A DNA stretch of 32,911 nt from the IMG/VR virus record IMGVR_UViG_3300032278_002433, positions 1-32,911 of that record. One strand, written 5' to 3'. The notes beneath the pieces were generated by a model. That model worked only from the letters and a program-made list of their open reading frames with translations, had not been told where the DNA came from and did not search any database. Origin of the DNA: a virus. Within the stretch, counting starts at the first letter, position 1; the number at the start of each line of letters is the position of its first letter. Shown piece by piece: positions 4,088 through 28,142 of this stretch. The position numbers and the translations under genes are program-made.

Positions 4088-5307
4088 TGTATTTAAATTA
4101 CTTTGATAAATTTTACAATATGGAGCCCTATCTCAAAATAGACGAGAAAGATTGGGAATACATAAAAGAAACATTTGAAAAACAAGATGTAAAAGAAAGT
4201 CTTGCCACGGTAGCAATGACCTATCCACTCCCATATCCAGATTTAACCGAAAAGAAGGCCTGGAAAGATTTCCAAAAACTCAAAGGGATGAAATGGAATG
4301 AAATAATGGTAGAGGGTGAGTGGTATGCAAGAGAGGGAACGAAGTATAGTTATAATCTGAACTATGATGGAAAACAACTCTACTTTCGTAGGTTGAACGC
4401 AGGAAACGATTGTAGTAACTATTTTCAAATAAAAAATAGGTGGTCGGTAGATGGTTCAGTATCACCAGGTCCAGTTAGGACTTGGGAAAGTCATAAGTTT
4501 ATGACTACTCTTATGGGAAGTGCATACTCACTTAAAATGCCCAAGATTACCAAGAATATATTGAGGACTATGATTGGACTTCGTAAATATATTTGTTCTC
4601 AATTTAAACCTAATGTGGCAAAGATAATTTATGATATGTTTGAATCAGAGAACATACTTGATTTCAGTGCTGGTTGGGGTGATAGACTTGCAGGATTCTA
4701 TGCAAGTGAATATGGAAAACATTATGTAGGAATAGATCCACGAAAAGAAAATCATCCTTTATATGAAGAACAATCTAAGTTTTATGACAAACATTTAGGA
4801 TTTTTTGAACATGATAGAAAGGCAGAGTTTTATTGTTCACCCTCAGAGGATTTTGATTTTTCACAGTACAATGAACACTTTGATTTAGTATTTACATCAC
4901 CACCTTACTTTAGCGTAGAGCGTTATAGTTATGATGATACTCAAAGTTGGGTTAGATACAAAGATATAAACGACTGGAACAAAGATTTCTTACAGACGAC
5001 CTTGGGTAACTTATGGGGCAGTATTAAGAGAGGTGGATACTTATTAGTGAATATATCAGATGTTTATACAAATTCTAAATGGTCAACCGATAGAGGTTGG
5101 TTGGAAATCTGTAATCCTATGAATGATTATCTATCAAAGTTAGGAGAGTATCAAGGTTGTATTGGAATGGAAATGGCTAAACGACCAAATAGTGGTGGGG
5201 CAGGAACGGCAAAGACTTACGAAGGTTCTGTGTGGACAGAAAAATCACTTGAAAACAAACAAGATAAGAAATTCGGAGAACCGATTTGGATATGGAAAAA
5301 GACATGA
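4087..5307 (+). CDS. DNA-methylase-like protein with SPPYF motif
   Basis: This 406-residue protein has SAM-binding motif I, DFSAGWGDR, at 192-200 and catalytic motif IV, TSPPYF, at 270-275. SPPY is typical of N4-cytosine and some N6-adenine DNA methylases. The first 180 residues form a separate region ending in FKPNVAKIIYDMF, which could recognise the substrate. A second protein with the same organisation (FRP..AAKLIYEKF, DMSCGWGGR, TSPPYF, then a TQS motif) begins at 31919, so the two are paralogues. The start is GTG at 4087, sharing one base with the preceding TAG. Methylation of phage DNA is the obvious role, but because it follows a PLP enzyme and a YkgJ-like protein it may belong to a more complex base-modification pathway. 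Confidence 0.75.
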   Translation: MYLNYFDKFYNMEPYLKIDEKDWEYIKETFEKQDVKESLATVAMTYPLPYPDLTEKKAWKDFQKLKGMKWNEIMVEGEWYAREGTKYSYNLNYDGKQLYFRRLNAGNDCSNYFQIKNRWSVDGSVSPGPVRTWESHKFMTTLMGSAYSLKMPKITKNILRTMIGLRKYICSQFKPNVAKIIYDMFESENILDFSAGWGDRLAGFYASEYGKHYVGIDPRKENHPLYEEQSKFYDKHLGFFEHDRKAEFYCSPSEDFDFSQYNEHFDLVFTSPPYFSVERYSYDDTQSWVRYKDINDWNKDFLQTTLGNLWGSIKRGGYLLVNISDVYTNSKWSTDRGWLEICNPMNDYLSKLGEYQGCIGMEMAKRPNSGGAGTAKTYEGSVWTEKSLENKQDKKFGEPIWIWKKT

Positions 5308-5855
5308 AAATTGAAAAATTTCAATATCCAGATTATGTTAATTTTAATAAGAAAATATTTCCAGTATTTTTAGAGTGGTCTAAAACAAAAGAAGATTTTC
5401 GTGAGAATAATGAATATCATAGGGATAGATATGATCAGAGAGTCAAAGAGAGAATCACATATTTTGATATGAATAAATCTTGGCATTCAGAAGATAATTT
5501 ACAAGATAATGAGTTATTAAAACCATTAAAAGATTTTATTCTTGAAACTGCAAAAAAAACATTTAATAAAAAATTTAAATTCTATACTATGTGGACAATA
5601 ATTACAAGAAAATATTCTAAAGGAGAACCACATTCACATCGTGGTTCTTATAGTGGTATATATTATGTAAATAATGGATGTTTTGATGATGATAACATTA
5701 CAGGATGTATAAATTTTGAAATGAAAGACGGAGTAAAAAAAGTTAAGCCACGAGATGGTGATTTATTATTTTTCCCATCAGATACGGTACATTATGTTGA
5801 TGAGTATCTTGGAGATGGCAATCGTGTTGTAATTTCTTTTAATTTGATGAAATGA
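5304..5855 (+). CDS. 2OG-Fe(II) oxygenase-like protein (paralogue 1)
   Basis: This 183-residue protein resembles the double-stranded beta-helix oxygenases of the TIGR02466 type. It has PHSHRGSYSGIYYV with H110 and H112, a distal H163 in DTVHYVDEY and R174 in GNRVVISFN, which fit metal and 2-oxoglutarate binding. The ATG at 5304 is preferred over TTG 5286 or ATG 5292. It gives the ATGA overlap used throughout this genome, and it lines up with the paralogue at 18261 (KFQYPDY here, KFEYPDY there). The substrate is unknown; such enzymes hydroxylate proteins, nucleobases or small molecules. It is followed through an ATGA overlap by a PP-loop ATPase. Confidence 0.7.
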   Translation: MKIEKFQYPDYVNFNKKIFPVFLEWSKTKEDFRENNEYHRDRYDQRVKERITYFDMNKSWHSEDNLQDNELLKPLKDFILETAKKTFNKKFKFYTMWTIITRKYSKGEPHSHRGSYSGIYYVNNGCFDDDNITGCINFEMKDGVKKVKPRDGDLLFFPSDTVHYVDEYLGDGNRVVISFNLMK

Positions 5856-9279: not shown

Positions 9280-10014
9280 ATGAAAAAGGTTTTTGTAACA
9301 TTAGCAAACAAAGAATTTTTACCTTATGTTAAACCATTAGAAGTTTGTGCAAAAGAGGTTGGAAAATGGGATGGAGATTTTGTTTGTATCACAGAAGATT
9401 CAGAATTTGTTAAAAAGATTCCAGGGAATCCATCTATTCATTTTTATAAAATGTTTTTGTTTCATGAGTACTTTAACCAATGGGATTGGATATTTTATTG
9501 TGATTTAGATGTTATGTTTTTAAATAAAATAAATTTGGAATTAAAGAATAGGCAAAAGGATATTTTATATGCAAATGATGATGATCTTAAATTTCATGAG
9601 CAATTTAGCAAATTGCCAGTAGAATTAAATCCCGTTTCAGATTATAAATCATTTCAGACTTGTTTTTTGTTATTTAATAAACAAATTATTGGGGATGATT
9701 ATTTTAGCAAGTTGTATGAGTGTTATTTAGATTATTTTGTTTATAGAAAAATTGCAAAATATAGTTGGTGGGATCAAACAATTTTCAATTCAGTTTTCAT
9801 TGATTCTTGGCATGAGCTTGGTGATAAATTTGTTAATAGATGTCCAGTTTTAAATGAAATTGATTGGGACATATCAAAGTTAGAAAATGGTTATTATGAT
9901 AATACGGACTATTCAGATAAGATAGCTGTACATTTTTTTAGTTTTTTTCCACCATGGAACGAAAACAATTTAAAATTTTACCCAATATGGAAGGAGTATA
10001 ATGACAGATTCTAA
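9280..10014 (+). CDS. Glycosyltransferase, GT8-like
   Basis: This 244-residue protein has the GT-A metal-binding DxD motif in WIFYCDLDVMFL (D75, D77), the typical position in GT8 and related nucleotide-sugar transferases. Other agreeing features are an N-terminal strand KKVFVTLA, SWWDQTIFNSVF near 175-190 (the conserved DQ block) and a C-terminal AVHFFSF with a histidine near the end. It starts directly after the previous stop and overlaps the first MORN-repeat gene by 14 bases. Substrates are unknown. Confidence 0.7.
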   Translation: MKKVFVTLANKEFLPYVKPLEVCAKEVGKWDGDFVCITEDSEFVKKIPGNPSIHFYKMFLFHEYFNQWDWIFYCDLDVMFLNKINLELKNRQKDILYANDDDLKFHEQFSKLPVELNPVSDYKSFQTCFLLFNKQIIGDDYFSKLYECYLDYFVYRKIAKYSWWDQTIFNSVFIDSWHELGDKFVNRCPVLNEIDWDISKLENGYYDNTDYSDKIAVHFFSFFPPWNENNLKFYPIWKEYNDRF

Positions 10015-11509
10015 ACAAAAACATGGAGAATACATTAAATATGATGATTCTGGAAGAATTACAAACATTGATTGGTATACAGATGGAAATCATGATTGTA
10101 GTTTAGATATTACAGATGGAGAACATATTTATACTCACGGTGATGGAAAACTTTGGCAAAAATATACTTTAAAGGGTGGTAAACCAGATGGTGAGTGGGT
10201 TTTATATCATTCAAATACTCGAATGAGTTTTTATAGAAAATTTAAGAATGGTTCAAGAGAGGGAATTTGGACAGGATGGCATAATGATGCTACAAGATGG
10301 ATGGTTGAAACTTATAAAGACGATAAAGAAAATGGATCTTTTAAGAGGTGGAGATATGGTGAAGTACCTCAATTTGAAGGTTATTATAAAGATGGTAAAA
10401 AAACTGATAAATGGATTTATTATTATGAAAGTGGAATACATGAATATGGTGGAAAATATAAGAATGGTAAAAGAATAGGAAAATGGGAAAGGTGGCATGA
10501 TGTATCAGGTCAAATATTTGCTATATCATATTATAAATATGGAAAATTAAATGGGAAATATACTGAGATTAACGAGGCTGGAAATGTATCAGTTGATGGT
10601 AATTATAAAAATGGTGAAAAGGATGGTAAATGGGTTTCTTTAAATAAAAATAAAAAAGTGGAAATGGAATTTAATTACAAAGATGGAAAGTTACATGGAA
10701 AGAAAATTTATTTTAATAAGTTAGGAAACCAAGCGAAAGTAGAATTTTACAAAAATGGGGAAATAGACAAGACAATTAATTATCATACTAATTTAGACCA
10801 AAAATTTAGGGAATTTAATTATGTAGATGGTAAGTTGAATGGGAAACATACAGAATTTGATAAAAAAGGAAATATAATTCTTAATGGTTATTACAAAGAT
10901 GGTGAAAAGGACGGTAAATGGGTTTTACTATCTCTTGGTGGTGATCCACGGAAAGAGGAAAATTATTTAGAAGGTAGATTAAGTGGTATCGTTAAAAAAT
11001 GGCATCCTAATAAAAAACTTTGGGTAGATGGTGAATATAGAAATGGTAAAAAACATGGAACTATCAAGAGTTTCCATTTTAATGGTGAAAAATCAACTCG
11101 TGAAAATTGGAATCAAGATAAAAAAGATGGTGATTGGACTGATTGGCATAAAAATGGAAATAAAAAAATGGAAACCATATATTCTAAAGGTGAAATACAA
11201 GGTAAACGGGTAGATTGGTATGTGAGTGGTAAATTAAAAAATGAATACTTTTGTAAAGACGATAAAATTCATGGAAATTTTTTAGAAAATTTTCCTAATG
11301 GCATCATTAGAAGTAAGGGTAAAGTTAAAAAGGGAAAAATGGATGGAAAATGGACATTTTGGTATCACAATGGACAAAAAGAGTGTGAGGTTATTTGTAA
11401 AAATGGAGAACTTATTGATGGTAAAGTTTGGGACGATGATGGCAATAAAAAAGAAAGTTTAAGATTTAATTTAACTTGGGAAGGTTCTGATGAACTACAG
11501 GATATTTGA
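10001..11509 (+). CDS. MORN-repeat protein 1 (MORN_2 / YwqK-like)
   Basis: Nearly the whole 502-residue protein is built of roughly 22-25-residue units of the MORN variant type. Each has a core like YKNGKKDGKW, then an aromatic strand such as WYHNG, and then a strand with alternating charge. I count close to twenty units, from GEYIKYDDSG at the start to ECEVICKNGE near the end. There is no signal peptide or membrane segment. The ATG at 10001 has an AAGGAG site at 9991-9996. MORN_2 repeats occur in bacterial proteins of mostly unknown role, some called YwqK-family antitoxins. They form elongated beta structures that can act as scaffolds or receptor-binding parts. It is paired with a second MORN gene through TGATG. 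Confidence 0.8.
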   Translation: MTDSKQKHGEYIKYDDSGRITNIDWYTDGNHDCSLDITDGEHIYTHGDGKLWQKYTLKGGKPDGEWVLYHSNTRMSFYRKFKNGSREGIWTGWHNDATRWMVETYKDDKENGSFKRWRYGEVPQFEGYYKDGKKTDKWIYYYESGIHEYGGKYKNGKRIGKWERWHDVSGQIFAISYYKYGKLNGKYTEINEAGNVSVDGNYKNGEKDGKWVSLNKNKKVEMEFNYKDGKLHGKKIYFNKLGNQAKVEFYKNGEIDKTINYHTNLDQKFREFNYVDGKLNGKHTEFDKKGNIILNGYYKDGEKDGKWVLLSLGGDPRKEENYLEGRLSGIVKKWHPNKKLWVDGEYRNGKKHGTIKSFHFNGEKSTRENWNQDKKDGDWTDWHKNGNKKMETIYSKGEIQGKRVDWYVSGKLKNEYFCKDDKIHGNFLENFPNGIIRSKGKVKKGKMDGKWTFWYHNGQKECEVICKNGELIDGKVWDDDGNKKESLRFNLTWEGSDELQDI

Positions 11510-12756
11510 TGGTAAAATATAAAAAAGTACCAAATAATAAAAATGCAATAGAGATTGATGGAAAGGTAGTACTGTCATTTGATCCAAGGTATAAAAAATA
11601 TTTGAAATGGAAAGATAAAAATCCTGAGTTAGAGGAAAGATTAATAGATAATTTAGAACAAGAAATAGAAAATGAAAAGTTGTATAATCTTGGTGCTCCA
11701 CATACGGGATCTAATAGTTGGAGTTGGTATAATGAAGATGGGAAATTAGGTTTGGAATCTGAAATGAGTGGGGGTAAGAAAGATGGAGAAGAGAAGGCAT
11801 ATCACGATAGTGGAAATTTAAAGTCTATATTTGAGTATCAAAATGATGTGATTCATGGTAAATCAAAAAATTGGTATGATAATGGTGAATTAGAAATGGA
11901 AGGGAATTTTAAGAACGGTAAAAAAGATGGTAAATGTATTTTTTATTTTGAGAATGGTAATAAAAAATGGGAAGGTAATTACAAAGATGATATTGTTTAT
12001 GGTCAATTGATTCAATATAAAGAAGATGGAAAGATAAGGTCAAAAGAAAATTATATAGATGGGGTTTTAGATGGAAATTACGAATTTTATCATAAAAATG
12101 GAAATTTAAGACAAAGTGGTTGGATACAAAATTATATGAAAAATGGAGAAATTAAATCATATTGGGAAAATGGATATTTACAATTATTAGAAAATTTTAA
12201 GATGGGAAGTAAACACGGAATAATCAATAAATATGGAATAGATGGAAAAATGCTTATGTCGGGTCAATATAAAAATAATTATCGTCATGGAAATTGGACA
12301 TGGTATTATATAGATAACACGTGTCTTCCTCTCTCTCGGATAGAGAGAGTGAGAGAAGGTCTCAGAGCAAAGAGGAAACGAGAGGTATATGAATTTTCAG
12401 ATTTAAAAAAGGTTATTGATTGGAATGAAAAAGGACAAAAAGTTAGTGAGGCAACCAAGAGTGCTACTGGATACGGTATATGGAGAAATCTTACTTGGTA
12501 TTCAAGTGGAGTTAAAAAACATGATGTAAATTACACAATAATGCACCATTTACACGGAAAATGGTCAGAATGGCATACGAATGGTGTAAAAAGAGCAGAA
12601 GGTAATATGCAATATGGAATGATGCAAGGAAAGTGGATATTTTGGCATCATAATAGAAAAAAAGAATTAGAATGTGAGTTTGATTTTGGAAGGCCCGTTG
12701 GTAGTGCAAAAATATATCATGATGGTGGTCAATTAAAGGAAGTGGTAAATTTTTGA
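11509..12756 (+). CDS. MORN-repeat protein 2 (MORN_2 / YwqK-like)
   Basis: This protein has 415 residues from ATG 11509, chosen over TTG 11506 because it forms the TGATG junction. The first 65 residues are a non-repeat, coiled and acidic region (ELEERLIDNLEQEIENEK). MORN_2 units follow with cores such as FKNGKKDGKC and HNRKKELECE. The array is broken near residues 268-300 by a basic, G+C-richer stretch (SRIERVREGLRAKRKR) that coincides with a DNA hairpin at 12331-12349. Repeats resume after it. The two MORN genes are probably duplicates that diverged. The stop overlaps the radical SAM gene's TTG. Function is unknown; a structural or binding role is the simplest inference. Confidence 0.8.
   Translation: MVKYKKVPNNKNAIEIDGKVVLSFDPRYKKYLKWKDKNPELEERLIDNLEQEIENEKLYNLGAPHTGSNSWSWYNEDGKLGLESEMSGGKKDGEEKAYHDSGNLKSIFEYQNDVIHGKSKNWYDNGELEMEGNFKNGKKDGKCIFYFENGNKKWEGNYKDDIVYGQLIQYKEDGKIRSKENYIDGVLDGNYEFYHKNGNLRQSGWIQNYMKNGEIKSYWENGYLQLLENFKMGSKHGIINKYGIDGKMLMSGQYKNNYRHGNWTWYYIDNTCLPLSRIERVREGLRAKRKREVYEFSDLKKVIDWNEKGQKVSEATKSATGYGIWRNLTWYSSGVKKHDVNYTIMHHLHGKWSEWHTNGVKRAEGNMQYGMMQGKWIFWHHNRKKELECEFDFGRPVGSAKIYHDGGQLKEVVNF
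12331..12349. repeat. CT/GA hairpin inside MORN gene 2
   Basis: CTCTCTC (12331-12337) and GAGAGAG (12343-12349) are exact complements around a five-base loop GGATA. The surroundings (about 12319-12385) are richer in G+C and in CT/GA repeats than any nearby sequence. The stretch lies in frame within a MORN array, and its translation does not follow the repeat consensus. It looks like an in-frame insertion or local simple-sequence expansion. Confidence 0.55.
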
Positions 12757-13592
12757 AAAAAAATAATTTAACATTAATTGATACATACAATTTGTGGTAT
12801 GATGGTTTAGAGGTAGATTATTTGTCAGGAAACTTTGACCTTATGATACAGTCTACTTGTAATTTACATTGCAAAGATTGTAGTATTTTAGATTGGAAAG
12901 GAAATGAATATCCTGGACAAACGATGAAACTTGAAGATGTTATAAATATAAATGAAAAGTTGATTAAACTTGGAATTATAGTGTATAGGTTAACTTTATT
13001 GGGTGGAGAGCCTACTCTTAATAAAGATATTATTAAGATTATAAAATATTTATCAGAGTTTAAAAATATAACTTTTAAAGAATTAAAGTTGATTACTAAT
13101 GGTTTATATTTTAAAAAAGATATTATTAAGTCATTTGAAGATTTAGATAGTTTAAGAATCTCTATATATCCTTATACTTTGGATATGAAAAAAGAACTTA
13201 TAAGAAGTCCATTGTATAAACATTTACTATCAATTACTGATCTTGAAGTAATAGAATTTGATCAATTTATTTGTTATGGAGTTGAGGATCCTAAGTTAGA
13301 ATATAGTAAAGAATTAAATTGGGAAAGATGTTTGAAAAAGAGTTGGTGTAGACATCTTACAATAGATGGATTGTATAGGTGTGATATTTTAGAAAATATA
13401 GGGAAAGAATTTTGTGATATGTCAGATAAAAATAAGGTAATAGATTATATAAAATCTGATGTTCCATATGATTATTGTGAAAAATGTCCACAACCTGCAT
13501 TAAGTAAACCATGGCAGAGTAATAATCCAGAAGTAGATAAAAAGAATACTAAACGAGGAATTTCTTTAATAAAAGAATGGAACTATGAGTAA
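12753..13592 (+). CDS. Radical SAM protein
   Basis: This 279-residue protein has the radical SAM cluster motif CNLHCKDC (C36, C40, C43), followed by the GGEP motif in LLGGEPTLNKD, both diagnostic. The C-terminal part has further cysteines (WCRHLTIDGLYRCDIL, then CEKCP), which may bind an auxiliary Fe-S cluster as in SPASM or Twitch proteins. The start is TTG, overlapping the MORN stop as TTGA, with AAGGAAG about ten bases upstream. It lacks the N-terminal features of QueE, so it is not obviously part of a queuosine pathway with the PP-loop genes. The substrate is unknown; radical SAM enzymes with glycosyltransferases often modify sugars or peptides. Confidence 0.8.
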   Translation: MKKNNLTLIDTYNLWYDGLEVDYLSGNFDLMIQSTCNLHCKDCSILDWKGNEYPGQTMKLEDVININEKLIKLGIIVYRLTLLGGEPTLNKDIIKIIKYLSEFKNITFKELKLITNGLYFKKDIIKSFEDLDSLRISIYPYTLDMKKELIRSPLYKHLLSITDLEVIEFDQFICYGVEDPKLEYSKELNWERCLKKSWCRHLTIDGLYRCDILENIGKEFCDMSDKNKVIDYIKSDVPYDYCEKCPQPALSKPWQSNNPEVDKKNTKRGISLIKEWNYE

Positions 13593-14100
13593 GATATTTT
13601 TAATAGGTTATATGGGAGTTGGTAAAACTACAGTTGGTAAAGTTTTATCAGAAAAACTGAATTGTGATTTTATAGATCCAGATGATAAAGAACATTGGAT
13701 AAGACGAGGTTTTCCTAATGGTCGAAGTGATGCATGGCATGTTAGTAAGGAAAAATTCTATGATATAGAAACAGAAATACTTAAAGATTATATATTAAGT
13801 AACGTTGGAAATTTTGTATATTCTACAGCAGGTTCTATTGTTTTACGAGAAGAAAATGTAGATTTAATGAAGTCAAGTGGAACAATAATTTTTTTAAATG
13901 CCAATGCTAAGATTATACATGATAGGTTAAAAAATTCAGATAAACAATTTCATGTGTCAAAAAATTATAATGAAGAAGATGTAAAAGAGTTTATGAAAGG
14001 TAGAGAACCTAAATATAAGTTTGCTGATTTAGAAATTGATACGAGTGATAAGTCTGTTGAAGAAGTTTCTTCAACTATAATAAAGTTGTTAAAGTTATGA
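13585..14100 (+). CDS. Shikimate-kinase-like P-loop kinase
   Basis: This 171-residue protein matches the length and start of AroK-type kinases. The P-loop GYMGVGKTT lies at 8-16 in the context MSKIFLIGYMGVGKTTVGK, followed by FIDPDD, the metal and substrate acidic position. The GGG block of AroK appears as the degenerate STAGSIVL, and the lid has REPKYKFAD near 137-145, like the R-x-P-x-Y of shikimate kinase. The altered GGG block suggests another small-molecule substrate, perhaps a sugar or nucleoside. It overlaps its neighbours by eight and four bases, so it belongs with the radical SAM and deaminase genes. Confidence 0.75.
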   Translation: MSKIFLIGYMGVGKTTVGKVLSEKLNCDFIDPDDKEHWIRRGFPNGRSDAWHVSKEKFYDIETEILKDYILSNVGNFVYSTAGSIVLREENVDLMKSSGTIIFLNANAKIIHDRLKNSDKQFHVSKNYNEEDVKEFMKGREPKYKFADLEIDTSDKSVEEVSSTIIKLLKL

Positions 14101-15737
14101 CTGATGAATATTATATGGAATTAGCTTTAGAGGAAGCTAAAATTGCATTGGAAGGAGGAAATTGGCCAATAGGTTGTGTTATTGAACTTGATGGAGAAGT
14201 AATTGCTAAAGAACATAATAGGGTTTATGATTCAAAGTCTCGGATTGAACATGCTGAAAAAATTGCAATAGAGAAAGTTTCACAGATTCTATGGGATAAT
14301 CCAGGACGGGCAACTCTTTATACTACCTATGAACCTTGTCCTATGTGTTTTGGGGCGATTATGTTAAGTGGGATAAAGAAAATTGTTTTTGGGTCTAATG
14401 TAGATAAGAGTGGTGCTTCAAATATTAGAAAACATTTACCATCTGTATATCAGGAAGATTATTATAAGGTGGATATAGTTGGGGATGTTTTAGAGAAAGA
14501 ATGTACTGAAGTATTTTTAAAGGGAAATAAAGCCTTCTTACTTGAAAAATATAAATTGTATTATGTATTAGAAAAGAATAATATTGATAGAGATATATTA
14601 AAAGAGAATGATGTATTTTTAGTTGGTAGTTCAATTTTACGATTATTTATGAATATACCATTAGATACAGATTTAGATTTTTATATTGAAATGGAAGAAA
14701 ATTATAAAAGAGTTGATAAATATTTTAATAATAATTTTCATTTTAATTATAATTGGACTATGGAAGATGGAAATTTTAAAAGTTATAAATGCAATTCTAA
14801 TGAAGTTCAGTTAATGAATCGATTACAATCTGTAGATAAGTTTATTGATAATTTTGATTTTACTATAATTAAAAGTTATTTTTCTTTTAAAGATGAGAAG
14901 TTTGTTTTTCATAAAAGATTTTTTGATGATATAAAATGTAAAAAGTTAGTATATGAATCAAAGGATAATCCTGGACCAATAGGGACAATGAAAAGAATTG
15001 ATAAATATAAAAAATTAGGATTTAAAGTAGATAATAAAAGTTTTAAAAAGTTATATGATGATGTTAAATCTGCTAGAGAAGGTGGTTATTTAGATAAATT
15101 AAAGGGAGTGGTTAAGAAAGTAAGTTGGTTACGGGCTAAAGAAATATATCCAAATATTCCAAACATAGATTTCTTTGTTAATTGGTTGATGGAAATAAAA
15201 GAACATAAATATTTTGATAAATTTAATTATTATTTATTTGGTGGTTTTATATCTTGGCCAGAAAAAACTAAGGATATAGATATATTAATAACAAAAAGAG
15301 ATGGTCAACATACTACCCTAAAAGAACTTGAAAAATTAATGGTGGATATGTTCGATTTTGCATACGACATTCACGGATTTTTTCTTGATACTTGTTATAT
15401 GAGAATTCCACAATGGATAGCAGATTATCCAAGAAATAAAGAAATTTTGAAGTCGGTAGAAAAAAAACAGTTATTTATCACCATAACAAAAAATAAACCT
15501 GAATATATGGTCAAATTTAAAAGGTATGGAAAACTTAATTGTTGTTATATGGGAACTTGGGAAAAGTTTTGGAAAGATAAAGATATCGAATCAGAGATGA
15601 TTCATAGATGGGTTGATTTAGATGCAAATTATACAAAAATGGTAGATTTAAGAAGAATCATAAAGTATTATGATAATGATAAGGAAAGAAATATAGAAGA
15701 TTTTTTGAATGAGTTTCAAGAATATTCGGGTTATTAG
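14097..15737 (+). CDS. Deaminase fused to two nucleotidyltransferase-like domains
   Basis: This is a 546-residue fusion. Residues 1-145 are a TadA/guanine-deaminase-type zinc domain: HAE at 52-54 supplies the zinc histidine and catalytic glutamate, and PCPMC at 80-84 the two cysteines. Residues about 172-330 contain GSS (177-179) followed by D190-x-D192-x-D194, the pattern of pol-beta/MNT nucleotidyltransferases. Residues about 375-530 repeat this with FGG (381-383) and D393-x-D395. Standalone TadA is about 160 residues, so the fusion is unusual. A bifunctional step on a nucleotide or tRNA end is possible. The A+T content is extreme (14701-14760 has only 7 G/C of 60). It is coupled to the kinase gene through ATGA. 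Confidence 0.7.
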   Translation: MTDEYYMELALEEAKIALEGGNWPIGCVIELDGEVIAKEHNRVYDSKSRIEHAEKIAIEKVSQILWDNPGRATLYTTYEPCPMCFGAIMLSGIKKIVFGSNVDKSGASNIRKHLPSVYQEDYYKVDIVGDVLEKECTEVFLKGNKAFLLEKYKLYYVLEKNNIDRDILKENDVFLVGSSILRLFMNIPLDTDLDFYIEMEENYKRVDKYFNNNFHFNYNWTMEDGNFKSYKCNSNEVQLMNRLQSVDKFIDNFDFTIIKSYFSFKDEKFVFHKRFFDDIKCKKLVYESKDNPGPIGTMKRIDKYKKLGFKVDNKSFKKLYDDVKSAREGGYLDKLKGVVKKVSWLRAKEIYPNIPNIDFFVNWLMEIKEHKYFDKFNYYLFGGFISWPEKTKDIDILITKRDGQHTTLKELEKLMVDMFDFAYDIHGFFLDTCYMRIPQWIADYPRNKEILKSVEKKQLFITITKNKPEYMVKFKRYGKLNCCYMGTWEKFWKDKDIESEMIHRWVDLDANYTKMVDLRRIIKYYDNDKERNIEDFLNEFQEYSGY

Positions 15738-15739
15738 AT

Positions 15740-16444
15740 ATGAAAAAATTATATAATCCATATTTAAAAATATCAGCTTGTCAGAATTATATTGAGTATT
15801 CTAAATCTATTTTAGATTTAACTTTACATCAACGAGATATGTTGAATGTATTAGATAATTGGAAACAAGATGTTAGTTATTTTTCATTGTTAGATATTGG
15901 TTGTGGACTTGGAAATATTGTTAATAATGATGTTATAAAAAGATTTAAGAATTATACTGGAGTAGAACCATCAGAAGAATTTTTTAAATATGCAAATAAA
16001 TATAATAAAAATGATGGAGTAAATTTTTATAATTGTTCGGTAGAAGATTTACCATTTGAAGATAATAGTTTTGATTTTATGATATCAAATGAAACTTGGT
16101 ATTATATTAAAGATATAAATAGGGCAGCAGAAGAATGTGGTCGTGTATTGAAAGAAAAATCTCCTGTTCTTATATATACAAGGAATCCAAACAATATGTT
16201 ATCGTGGCCACAGATAGATAAATTAATAAATAAGACAAAAGAAGATATTGAAGTACATTCTGTTATAAACACTTCTTTTGGTGAATGTGATATTGGAGAA
16301 CATTTTTTATCAAGGATTTCAATGGATGATTTAATTAAATCTTTTGAACGAGTAGATATAAAAATAGTATTGGTAAATTATCATAAATTTAATAAAGTGA
16401 TATTGGATACATCGGTTTCCATACAAGGAGAAAAAAATGATTAG
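15740..16444 (+). CDS. SAM-dependent methyltransferase (Methyltransf_11-like)
   Basis: This 234-residue protein has a clear SAM site: LDIGCGLG at 51-58, GVEPS ending strand two, a VEDLPFEDNSFDFM block and an AAEECGRVLKEK helix after motif IV. This is the standard layout of Methyltransf_11 enzymes, which methylate small molecules, quinones, sugars or glycan intermediates. No DNA- or RNA-recognition domain is visible. It lies two bases after the fusion gene and overlaps the GT2 gene by eight bases. Glycan or sugar methylation is a reasonable inference from context. Confidence 0.8.
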   Translation: MKKLYNPYLKISACQNYIEYSKSILDLTLHQRDMLNVLDNWKQDVSYFSLLDIGCGLGNIVNNDVIKRFKNYTGVEPSEEFFKYANKYNKNDGVNFYNCSVEDLPFEDNSFDFMISNETWYYIKDINRAAEECGRVLKEKSPVLIYTRNPNNMLSWPQIDKLINKTKEDIEVHSVINTSFGECDIGEHFLSRISMDDLIKSFERVDIKIVLVNYHKFNKVILDTSVSIQGEKND

Positions 16445-17354
16445 TTTTATTATACCTTTTTCTACGATAGAAAAAGATAAGTTTTTAAACTTAAACGAGA
16501 AAGAAGATTTGTGGAAAGAAAATGATTCTGCAAATATAATCTATTCTACTATAAAAACAATTAAAAATATTAATTCACTTGAATGTGAAAAAGAAATTTT
16601 ATTAATGGATAATAGTCATACTTGGCCAGAGATAAAATTACCAAATGTTAGAGTTATTAAGGGATGGCAAGCATTACCACTTAAAGAACTTGAAAAGATT
16701 CCAGAATACATGAACCACAGAGATATACAGGCAAGTTTAGATAACCTTGGTTGTTTGACTATGTGGGTATCTATGGCATTTCATTTGGGAACACAAGAAG
16801 CAAAGGGCGAGTATGTGGTATTACAACATAATGACACATTCTATCATCAAGATTGTATAGATGAAATGATTAAAGAAATGGAAGAAGAAGAACTTGAATA
16901 TATTTCAGTTGATAATAAGAAGATATGGATTTCAACTTATTTGTTAAATAAAGATTTTTTAGATAAATATATTAAAGAATATACTGCACAACCAGTTATA
17001 ATAAGACCTGAAAATGGTGGATATATAAAAACTAAAAAGGTTGGATTTGCAGATGCGTATTTTTTCATGTGTAAGAGAAAGTTCTTTGATAATTATAATA
17101 TAGACTGGTACTATGGTGATACGAATCATGGTGCTACTGTTTATTGTCTCTATAATGATTTAAAGTATCTTCATTTGGGTCCCTATTATGATAATCCAAA
17201 TTGGGAAACGGAAGATACGTTACATACATATTACTATAAAGATGAGCCATTTTTAACTCATCTTAAAGGTGGATTTTCAGAAAATAAGATGTCATCAAAA
17301 GATTTTGAAGAAGAATTTAATAGTTATTTACAGGAATTAAAAAATGCAAAATGA
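16437..17354 (+). CDS. Glycosyltransferase, GT2-like (GT-A fold)
   Basis: This 305-residue protein begins with the typical MISFIIPFST strand of GT2 enzymes. EILLMDNSHTW follows at strand two. A region GEYVVLQHNDTFYHQDCI has HND at the place of the DxD metal motif. Further on are FFMCKRKFFDNY and a C-terminal HLKGG segment. There are no membrane segments, so it acts in the cytoplasm. The ribosome site AAGGAG precedes ATG 16437. It overlaps the gp44 gene by 11 bases, so cargo and replication genes are translationally linked here. Substrates are unknown. Confidence 0.65.
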   Translation: MISFIIPFSTIEKDKFLNLNEKEDLWKENDSANIIYSTIKTIKNINSLECEKEILLMDNSHTWPEIKLPNVRVIKGWQALPLKELEKIPEYMNHRDIQASLDNLGCLTMWVSMAFHLGTQEAKGEYVVLQHNDTFYHQDCIDEMIKEMEEEELEYISVDNKKIWISTYLLNKDFLDKYIKEYTAQPVIIRPENGGYIKTKKVGFADAYFFMCKRKFFDNYNIDWYYGDTNHGATVYCLYNDLKYLHLGPYYDNPNWETEDTLHTYYYKDEPFLTHLKGGFSENKMSSKDFEEEFNSYLQELKNAK

Positions 17355-18264
17355 ACATACCCTATGGGTAGAAAAATATAGACCAACTTCGTTAGATACA
17401 TATTTAGGTAACGAACACTTAAAGAGTAAGGTATCTCTTTATCTTGAAAGTGGAGATATACCACATTTACTTTTATATGGAAAGGCAGGTACAGGTAAAA
17501 CTACACTTGCAAAGATACTCGTAAATCACATAGAGTGTGATTATATCTATATTAATGCGAGTGATGAAAATAATGTGGATACAGTTCGGAACAAGGTGAA
17601 GATGTTTGCATCTACATTAGGTTTCAAAGATTACAAGGTCATTATACTTGATGAGTGTGATTATATCACACCAAATGCCCAGGCCGCACTAAGAAATTTG
17701 ATGGAAACATTTAGTAAACATTGTAGGTTTGTTTTAACCTGTAATTTCGTAGAGAGAATAATTGACCCGATACAATCTCGATGCCAGACATTCCAAACTA
17801 CACCACCATCCAAAAAGGAAGTGGCAGTTCATTTATCAAAAATATTGGAAACCGAAGAAGTAGGATATGAACTATCTGATATAGCACTTTTAATAAACAG
17901 TGTATATCCAGATATAAGACGAGTTATCAATTCCGCACAACGACAATCAGTAGAAGGTGAATTGACAATAGATAAACAGAGTATCGTAGAGAATGATTAT
18001 AAGTTAAAGTTATTAGAAATATTAAAGACACAAGATAGGAAAAATGCATTTAAGAGCATCCGTCAGTTATTGGCAGATAGTCAAGTTAAGGATTACGCAG
18101 ACTTATTTAGACTACTATATGATGAAGTAGATAGTTATGGTAAGGGACATATTGCAGAATGTATTTTAGTATTAGGAAAGTATGAATTAAGTGATAGTCA
18201 GGTAGTTGATAAAGAAATCAATGCTATGGCTATGATAATAGAATTATTAGGAGTCATAAAATAA
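17344..18264 (+). CDS. 44: Clamp-loader ATPase large subunit (T4 gp44-like)
   Basis: This 306-residue AAA+ protein matches gp44 of T4 (319 residues). It has the RFC-type start LWVEKYRPTSLDTYLG, Walker A GKAGTGKT at 46-53, Walker B ILDECD ending at 106, and the SRC arginine-finger motif at 145-147 (PIQSRCQTF). Four such subunits plus gp62 open the gp45 ring and load it onto primer-template DNA. It is relatively G+C-rich (17641-17700 has 23 G/C of 60) compared with the flanking cargo, which suggests a different history. gp62 does not follow directly as in T4; a candidate lies almost 12 kb downstream. The stop TAA overlaps the presumed lost start of the next gene. Confidence 0.95.
   Translation: MQNEHTLWVEKYRPTSLDTYLGNEHLKSKVSLYLESGDIPHLLLYGKAGTGKTTLAKILVNHIECDYIYINASDENNVDTVRNKVKMFASTLGFKDYKVIILDECDYITPNAQAALRNLMETFSKHCRFVLTCNFVERIIDPIQSRCQTFQTTPPSKKEVAVHLSKILETEEVGYELSDIALLINSVYPDIRRVINSAQRQSVEGELTIDKQSIVENDYKLKLLEILKTQDRKNAFKSIRQLLADSQVKDYADLFRLLYDEVDSYGKGHIAECILVLGKYELSDSQVVDKEINAMAMIIELLGVIK
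18249..18264 (+). promoter_or_regulatory. Ribosome site and apparent lost start (ATA) at the gp44 / oxygenase junction
   Basis: AGGAG at 18249-18253 is followed seven bases later by ATAA (18261-18264). Other junctions in this genome have ATGA at this place, with ATG the start of the next gene and TGA the stop of the previous one. A G to A change at 18263 would convert ATGA to ATAA, keeping a stop for gp44 but removing the start of the downstream frame. The downstream frame (ATA AAA ATA AAT CCT) encodes the expected N-terminus of a 2OG oxygenase paralogue. Confidence 0.65.
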
Positions 18265-26961: not shown

Positions 26962-27670
26962 ACTTGATGAATACTTAGATATAACAGAATTCAAATCTAT
27001 ATCCCAGGAGTTTAAAGAGAATTTATCAGATGTAGAACAGTGGAGTAACATCGGTGTATTTTCTCCCGATGAGAAACTTGAGGAACCAGAAGGTGCAAAA
27101 ACTTTATCATTGAGGATACTCAAAGATATATCTAATATTACTAATTGGGCGGCCATTGATAAACACGACCTTTGGGAAGATGGTCCAGTATATCAATCTA
27201 CATTTCCAAAAATATATCAATTTGTCAATAATTTACCATTTAAGAATGTTGCAAGGGTTTTTCTTAGTTACACTAAAGATAAAACTGAGATATTACCTCA
27301 TGCAGCATTTACACCGGGAATCCAAGAACCTTGGCGACAAGAATTTTTATGGTTTAGTTTACTTGGTGATAAAAAAATGTGGGTTAGTGATTGGGATAGT
27401 ACTTTGGAATATTATAATAATGGATTTGTAATAAAAGATAAATTTCCAATGGAATATTCTAATGGAGTTTCTTGTTGGTTTAATCCCATTATGTTACATG
27501 GAATCAAAAATGGTGAAGATTTTTCAGCAAGTTTAAGAATTGATGGAGAGTTTACAGAAGAATTTAGAGAAAAGTTATTTGGTGATACCAAATGGAAAAC
27601 GACATTTAATTGGGTTGATGAAAGACATTTATTGCCAGAAGATAGTAGGTACTTAGAGCATGAAAAATGA
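26936..27670 (+). CDS. Possible 2OG-Fe(II)/DSBH oxygenase-like protein
   Basis: This 244-residue protein has a beta-rich core with H122 in EILPHAAFTPG, W138/W149 strands, a distal H188 in IMLHGIKNG and R201 in SLRIDGEF. The spacing of the distal histidine and arginine resembles double-stranded beta-helix oxygenases, but the HxD/HxE motif is not clean: after H122 come Ala-Ala-Phe. The assignment is tentative and it may be a divergent or non-catalytic member. It overlaps the transporter gene by 26 bases and the SET gene by 11. Confidence 0.5.
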   Translation: MINLPKIIELDEYLDITEFKSISQEFKENLSDVEQWSNIGVFSPDEKLEEPEGAKTLSLRILKDISNITNWAAIDKHDLWEDGPVYQSTFPKIYQFVNNLPFKNVARVFLSYTKDKTEILPHAAFTPGIQEPWRQEFLWFSLLGDKKMWVSDWDSTLEYYNNGFVIKDKFPMEYSNGVSCWFNPIMLHGIKNGEDFSASLRIDGEFTEEFREKLFGDTKWKTTFNWVDERHLLPEDSRYLEHEK

Positions 27671-28142
27671 TATAGAATATATAATGGATTGGTTTCAAAA
27701 CCACGTTTGGTTAAGACCAAAACCATCTACGGTATGTGATGGTATAGGAATGTTTGCTATTCGTGATATACCAAAGGGAACGAGTGTATATGATTTGGCA
27801 AAAAAGAATTGCTGTGAATGGATACCATTTGAAGTTGCCAATACATTACCAAGAGGTGTATTTGACTGGATAATAGAATCTCAACCGCATGTAGGTTCGG
27901 AAGTATGTGATGATGATTTTACTTGGAAAGAAGAAAATGGTCCTGTTTGGATATACACAGCTCAAAATTTAAATTGGCAAACAAATTGGTTCTTTCAGAA
28001 TCACTCAACTACACCAAATGTTAAAATGAAAACTACGAAAAATCCAAGAATGTTTGAGTATTACACTATGAGAGATATAAAAGAGGGTGAGGAATTACTT
28101 GAAGATTATGATGATTATGTGGGTACCTGGAAGGGAAAATGA
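27660..28142 (+). CDS. SET-domain protein
   Basis: This 160-residue protein shows SET-domain landmarks in order: DGIGMFAIRDIPKGT at 27-41, then WFFQNHSTTPNVKM with NHSxxPN at 114-120, then RDIKEGEELLEDYDDY at 138-153. These are the SAM-binding and catalytic pieces of protein lysine methyltransferases. No Pre-SET or Post-SET cysteines are visible. Bacterial and viral SET proteins can methylate host proteins, but the target here is unknown. Translation is coupled with both neighbours (overlaps of 11 and 4 bases). Confidence 0.8.
   Translation: MKNDIEYIMDWFQNHVWLRPKPSTVCDGIGMFAIRDIPKGTSVYDLAKKNCCEWIPFEVANTLPRGVFDWIIESQPHVGSEVCDDDFTWKEENGPVWIYTAQNLNWQTNWFFQNHSTTPNVKMKTTKNPRMFEYYTMRDIKEGEELLEDYDDYVGTWKGK

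Follow-up and report, generated by a model that had tools for sequence, protein, structure and literature searches.

The gene at 14097..15737 (+ strand) of the window, as we call the whole 32,911-base virus record analysed here, encodes a 546-residue protein that starts with ATG, has an open frame and joins a zinc deaminase to a class II-like nucleotidyltransferase (NTase) head and a second, putative NTase. Comparison with related viral contigs shows that this NTase gene of a marine-type phage has an exchangeable N-terminal slot, and that the deaminase is a recent add-on rather than part of a fixed machine. The combination of deamination and nucleotidyl transfer in one chain, which the first-pass annotation had pointed out as unusual, is real, and a fusion of this kind was not found in the open-licence literature searched; to treat it as one functional unit, however, is too strong. 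What deserves attention is less the deaminase-NTase pair than a constant core carrying an exchangeable front.

The NTase core and its changing partners

Scanning IMG/VR with the whole protein, its core or its parts yielded eight related contigs, each with a different metagenome number. The two-NTase core is present in all eight and the window deaminase in none, so that, of the three domains for which the first-pass annotation had proposed a test of co-occurrence in other phages, only the NTase pair stays together. A conserved three-domain system was therefore rejected, the deaminase being found in the window only in scans of viral contigs. In L002, L073 and L074 the core stands alone, as an ORF of 397-406 residues. 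In L069 and L070 it is preceded by about 285 residues that are sulfotransferase-like (Pfam E 0.0005 and 0.019, both under the cut-off); these two N-termini are 59% alike, and at 37-38% they resemble ORFs that stand alone in two further contigs of the same group. L071 and L072 carry N-termini of about 290 residues that are 93% alike mutually and share 36-39% identity with standalone ORFs, among them that at window 9280-10011; they match no Pfam glycosyltransferase family, and we take them to be glycosyltransferase-like from the look of their sequence. The L001 contig starts at the base matching window 14548, at the junction, and its N-terminus is cut off. Four of the seven relatives with a visible N-terminus are fused, in frame, at one point and with open frames. 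It is highly improbable that the deaminase and the NTases were merely joined in silico, as a chimeric assembly: the pair is known from one contig only and the L001 contig ends at the same junction, but the frame is open across the join, and in four further contigs, which come from other samples, different modules are attached at this very point.

The slot downstream of the core varies as well. It is occupied in the window by a methyltransferase (15740..16444, +), in L001 and L074 by a CMP/dCMP-type deaminase, in L002 by an Eco57I-like protein, in L071 and L073 by a sulfotransferase-like one and in L072 by a 239-residue ORF, and in L069 and L070 by nothing. The methyltransferase neighbour is as exchangeable as the N-terminus. 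The CMP/dCMP-type zinc deaminase (141 residues; L001 1185-1610, L074 4604-5029) is different from the fused one and is the gene directly after the NTase core in two of the nine contigs; deaminases thus occur on either side of the core. These arrangements might mean that the domains have no joint function, the NTase gene simply marking the fixed border of a hypervariable array of cassettes, where recombination creates in-frame joins that are tolerated because each domain folds alone. One junction with three kinds of N-terminus, or none, in all members, standalone homologues of two modules in the same phage group and the variability of the other side are all in keeping with this; the fusions of four out of seven visible relatives, always in frame, at one point and with open frames, speak against it, and we consider it unlikely.

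Of two otherwise matching contigs, the window carries the deaminase and L002 lacks it. Their DNA agrees at 92% over 12582-13627 and at 86% over 14546 to 15738 (blastn), and the window has an inserted stretch of about 0.9 kb (13593..14546, +; edges +/- about 35 bases), with the kinase ORF and the deaminase, that is absent from the L006/L002 contig. The window kinase begins at the position taken in L002 by the start of the standalone NTase, and the insert ends exactly at the NTase start; in other contigs, homology near this start begins at 14524-14577. Such a clustering of homology breaks, the start of L001 included, is what would be expected if the NTase gene had an exchange point at its 5' end. 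The insert has a GC of 0.303, where stretches of the same size have a mean of 0.296, with no compositional sign of transfer, and no donor of the kinase-deaminase cassette was found in single-sequence scans of viral contigs with the kinase and the deaminase, which detect close relatives only. The kinase inserted along with the deaminase (13585..14100, +; PF01202, 96.5 bits) is shikimate-kinase-like and, with the methyltransferase on the other side, flanks the fusion gene as initially described; it falls far below all NCBIfam shikimate kinase equivalog cut-offs, and its substrate may be a different one.

Median identity over the 36 pairs of the nine members is 43% in the middle domain and 72% in the C-terminal one. 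The window and L001 have identical middle-domain DNA (pS 0.00), with 82% and a pS of 0.30 in the C-terminal part, L001 and L069 agree at 37% in the middle and at 88% in the C-terminal domain, and L070 and L071, at 86% in the middle domain, have unrelated N-termini. The deaminase, middle and C-terminal parts have separate recombination histories, giving a phage gene made of three separately exchanged parts with a break at one fixed point. The dN/dS values, calculated with a simple Nei-Gojobori script, are 0.32-0.54 for the middle domain (seven of eight pairs, the eighth having no differences) and 0.16-0.38 for the C-terminal domain (eight pairs), and therefore point to purifying selection on both NTase domains. 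As judged from these comparisons, the window fusion is recent and lies at an exchange point; the phage is T4-like, and the region is one of glycan/metabolite genes.

Three domains in one chain

The N-terminal domain (residues 1-150, 14097..14546, +) is a zinc deaminase, as had been read from HAE (residues 52-54, 14250..14258, +) and PCPMC (residues 80-84, 14334..14348, +). PF00383 matches residues 2-99 with 80.9 bits (cut-off 25), all zinc and catalytic residues are present and correctly placed (N41, H52-A53-E54, P80-C81-P-M-C84), and the motif appears in none of 2,000 letter shuffles of the fusion protein. Its closest solved relatives are chains of the tRNA-specific adenosine deaminase TadA (phmmer, 4.4e-26), with guanosine and cytosine deaminase structures next, near 1e-13. 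An identity as TadA tRNA adenosine-34 deaminase was rejected: NF008113 gives 74.9 bits where the NCBIfam equivalog cut-off requires 150; Y78 stands against L in 84 of 84 bacterial rows and G92 against R in 60 of 84 (three of 87 rows were left out for length); and the SRI, FNH and FF..R signature residues of the bacterial relatives are not kept. In a 32-row tree, the deaminase groups weakly with GuaD-like rows (support 85/84) on a long branch of 1.68; the comparison set was retrieved by a TadA-favouring pattern and may lack the nearest true relative. A single-sequence scan of viral contigs, detecting close relatives only, found no relative of this deaminase.

Beyond the deaminase, residues 160-546 do match NTases, clearly in the middle domain and weakly in the C-terminal one, so that the two Pol-beta-type NTases proposed in the first-pass annotation are well founded for the former and to a lesser degree for the latter. 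NTase motifs alone are weak evidence because they are frequent in shuffles (G[GS]..DxD occurs at least once in 256 and at least twice in 39 of 2,000 shuffles of the fusion protein); their conservation in relatives makes them solid. The middle domain (residues 151-342, 14547..15122, +), at which the homology of the relatives starts, has a catalytic motif from GSS (G177-S178-S179) to DTDLD (190-194, with D190, D192 and D194; 14625..14678, +), a third carboxylate at D254 (14856..14858, +) in FDFT, the counterpart of class II RDFTINA by alignment and profile, and R300..K303 (14994..15005, +), which aligns with LRxxRF. G177, D192, D194 and the third Asp are kept in nine of nine members, the second G being S in two. 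Only six positions, G, D, D, D, R and K, are invariant in a 37-row alignment of the domain (G32, D47, D49 and D109 among them), and AGG..DxD recurs in 45 of the 46 distant relatives examined, out of 52 distant loci.

The fold of the middle domain agrees with that of class II enzymes. The AlphaFold2 model of residues 146-546 has a mean pLDDT of 75, with ten-residue means between 76 and 98 over its first 170 residues. Foldseek ranks 1-24 for the middle domain (best E 1e-7) are CCA-adding enzymes or entries titled tRNA-processing enzyme or 'bacterial protein' (3aqk/3aql/3aqm, structures of the E. coli poly(A) polymerase, PAP), and VIA gives a Z of 15.9 over 182 residues, with an rmsd of 3.4, against a CCA-adding enzyme with CTP (3h3a). 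The structure matches of the fusion model to class II enzymes end at about model residue 195-202, and the remainder of the model is poorer. The comparison of profiles by hhalign (prob 91.4, P 8.9e-7, 154 columns) aligns the middle domain with 15 bacterial class II proteins and brings the motifs GG and DxD, the turn at DFT and the helix of R..[RK][FY] into register; the deaminase, used as a control, gives a prob of 0.2. The base-selecting EDxxR motif, found just upstream of LRxxRF in class II enzymes, is missing: its Arg is absent in 37 of 37 middle-domain rows, whereas the pattern is present in 12 of the 15 bacterial class II proteins compared. PF01743 is not among the Pfam matches of the fusion protein. 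The middle domain, as modelled, is class II-like in fold and should not be named a CCA-adding enzyme.

The same domain matches PHROG 4400 (E 2.1e-12), a family of "unknown function" from Aeromonas, Klebsiella, Salmonella and Escherichia phages for which no name was found in the open-licence literature. In phages of Vequintavirinae type (L005, L011, L035, L045 and L065), the PHROG 4400 gene comes after an extensive tRNA array and before the gene for the large subunit of the terminase. The present comparison offers a fold and a likely chemistry for this widespread unnamed family, that of a CCA/poly(A)-polymerase-like NTase with altered base selection.

The C-terminal domain (residues 343-546, 15123..15734, +) is likely, but not proven, to be an NTase because motif position and fold family agree. 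Its catalytic motif runs from FGG (F381-G382-G383) to DID (393-395, with D393 and D395; 15237..15281, +), its third carboxylate is D431 (15387..15389, +), and GG, both Asp residues of DxD and D431 are kept in nine of nine members. A separate model of the domain has a pLDDT of 61, with 105 of 201 residues below 70. The best Foldseek match is AAD(9), at E 0.013, TdT and MNT also being found, VIA gives AadA and a minimal NTase at Z 6.1 each, a value of a size possible by chance, and the majority of the best fold rows are nucleotidyltransferases. There is no match to this domain in Pfam, in the host genome contigs or, at E <= 1, in the phage collection, and in profile comparison the prob is 4.9 against CCA-adding enzymes and 1.7 against the middle domain, over the GG..DxD stretch only. 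A search of the PDB with the profile A5 gave chance matches only. A family that VIA does not list, such as LicD, is possible for this domain. As the catalytic residues are intact in both NTases and in the deaminase, all three are probably active.

Genomic setting and candidate functions

The window carries T4-type genes, with a piece of DNA polymerase B at its start. A radical SAM protein (12753..13592, +), which in L002 is directly upstream of the standalone NTase gene, precedes the kinase; beyond the variable slot lies the conserved right flank, a GT2-like glycosyltransferase and a gp44-type clamp loader (16437..18264, +; by homology). The best phage matches of the clamp loader (17344-18264) are an uncultured phage (48%) and a Microcystis phage (43%), followed by cyanophages and Pelagibacter phage HTVC008M (38-39%). 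It is uninterrupted, unlike the one in L006 (4073-6357 of contig IMGVR_UViG_3300025727_000634), which is interrupted by two intein halves (each with a PF14890 match below cut-off) with a 297-residue ORF between them (4755-5645) that has no Pfam match above cut-off. The neighbours include polysaccharide pyruvyl transferase, glycosyltransferases, a sulfotransferase, a PfkB kinase, 2OG oxygenases, methyltransferases, radical SAM and MORN repeats. The latter form two adjoining ORFs of MORN_2 repeats (10001-11509 and 11506-12756), and several relatives have comparable ORFs, differing in length, ahead of their NTase core. At 27660-28142 the window also encodes a SET-domain protein (PF00856, 46.7 bits). 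Such variable glycan regions are described for cyanophages and pelagimyophages, with a suggested role in host-surface change and the exclusion of rival phages (PMC7824862, PMC7029224).

A viperin-kinase-deaminase pathway for nucleotide analogues was considered and rejected: PADLOC matches pVip and VakA, yet the neighbouring radical SAM protein scores 44.7 bits for viperin against a cut-off of 180, and higher, 51.1 bits, for MoaA (NCBIfam). That the gene is an NTase toxin or a defence or counter-defence cargo, comparable to the MenT or AbiEii toxins, which modify tRNA, is very improbable; its fold neighbours include MenT1 (Z about 7) and MNT proteins, but PADLOC has no match for the standalone core of L073, no antitoxin-like partner was noticed and the dCTPase match of the deaminase is limited to the zinc-site region.

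The reading that we favour, tentatively and at somewhat less than even chance, is that of a T4-like phage tandem NTase with an insertion at its exchange point, which would transfer NMP to a glycan or metabolite and carry tailoring activities at its N-terminus. The two-domain NTase would have a constant position next to the genes of the clamp loader, in a region of host-surface or metabolite modification, and its 5' end would serve as an exchange point where various enzymes, or none, are fused in frame at one junction. Comparison with L002 shows that a kinase-deaminase cassette was inserted there and that the deaminase, which lacks a stop codon, was thereby turned into the N-terminal domain. 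The acceptor of the NMP would most likely be a glycan, a sugar or a small metabolite, the fused N-terminal enzymes may be tailoring activities for the same region, and the substrate of the deaminase would be a free base, a nucleoside or a nucleotide-linked precursor. On the other side, the deaminase fusion is known from one contig, RNA is the substrate of class II enzymes and functional neutrality of the fusions is conceivable; the sulfotransferase assignment is weak (Pfam below cut-off), and that of glycosyltransferase comes from 36-38% identity to standalone ORFs and presumed resemblance.

In a different proposal, the class II-like domain would extend the 3' end of a tRNA or of some other RNA with help from the second NTase, and the deaminase would edit a base of the same RNA in a TadA-like manner. 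In this regard, CCA-adding enzymes and PAPs are nearest to the middle domain, TadA chains are the closest solved relatives of the deaminase, and 5 of the 41 distant middle-domain loci scanned, out of 52, are near tRNA genes. However, neither the window nor the loci of eight relatives contain tRNA genes, EDxxR is missing throughout the 37 rows, the TadA equivalog cut-off (74.9 of 150 bits) is not reached and its typical residues are lacking, and the alternative N-termini are unlike RNA enzymes. We regard this proposal as possible, although on balance improbable. CCA-adding enzymes are reported from jumbo and T7-like phages (PMC7824862, PMC7693777), in keeping with an RNA substrate. Because EDxxR is absent, tRNA genes are not nearby and glycan-type partners are fused elsewhere, we prefer nucleotidylation of a glycan or metabolite to addition at RNA ends with modest confidence.

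A further, rather doubtful idea is that of a modular platform, where a constant tandem-NTase core would bear interchangeable catalytic heads (deaminase, sulfotransferase or glycosyltransferase) at a single junction and thereby link different modifications to the same nucleotidyl transfer on a common substrate. If this were true, the class II CCA/PAP-like head, which lacks EDxxR, would act on a novel substrate other than tRNA.

Comparison with known systems

The window deaminase shares its zinc and catalytic residues and its fold family with TadA and GuaD-type zinc deaminases (PF00383); it differs from TadA in the typical residues and in the equivalog score, and its weak GuaD-like placement is on a long branch. 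The middle domain has the head and neck fold of class II CCA-adding enzymes and PAPs, with the same order GG..DxD..D, the DFT turn and the R..[RK][FY] helix, and is related to the PHROG 4400 phage proteins. Class II enzymes, however, have EDxxR, which the middle domain lacks, and continue after the neck into a body and tail, whereas the window protein has another, putative NTase there. This C-terminal domain is alike in predicted core and motifs to the minimal nucleotidyltransferases and the AadA/AAD(9) adenylyltransferases, with fold matches that are weak and come without a sequence match. Tandem-NTase proteins with two Pol-beta-type NTases per chain are known, as in GlnE and OAS2/3, and the window protein is like them in this respect, with no family match seen. 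If heads and core do cooperate, the arrangement would be the reverse of that of polymorphic toxins, with a variable front and a constant rear.
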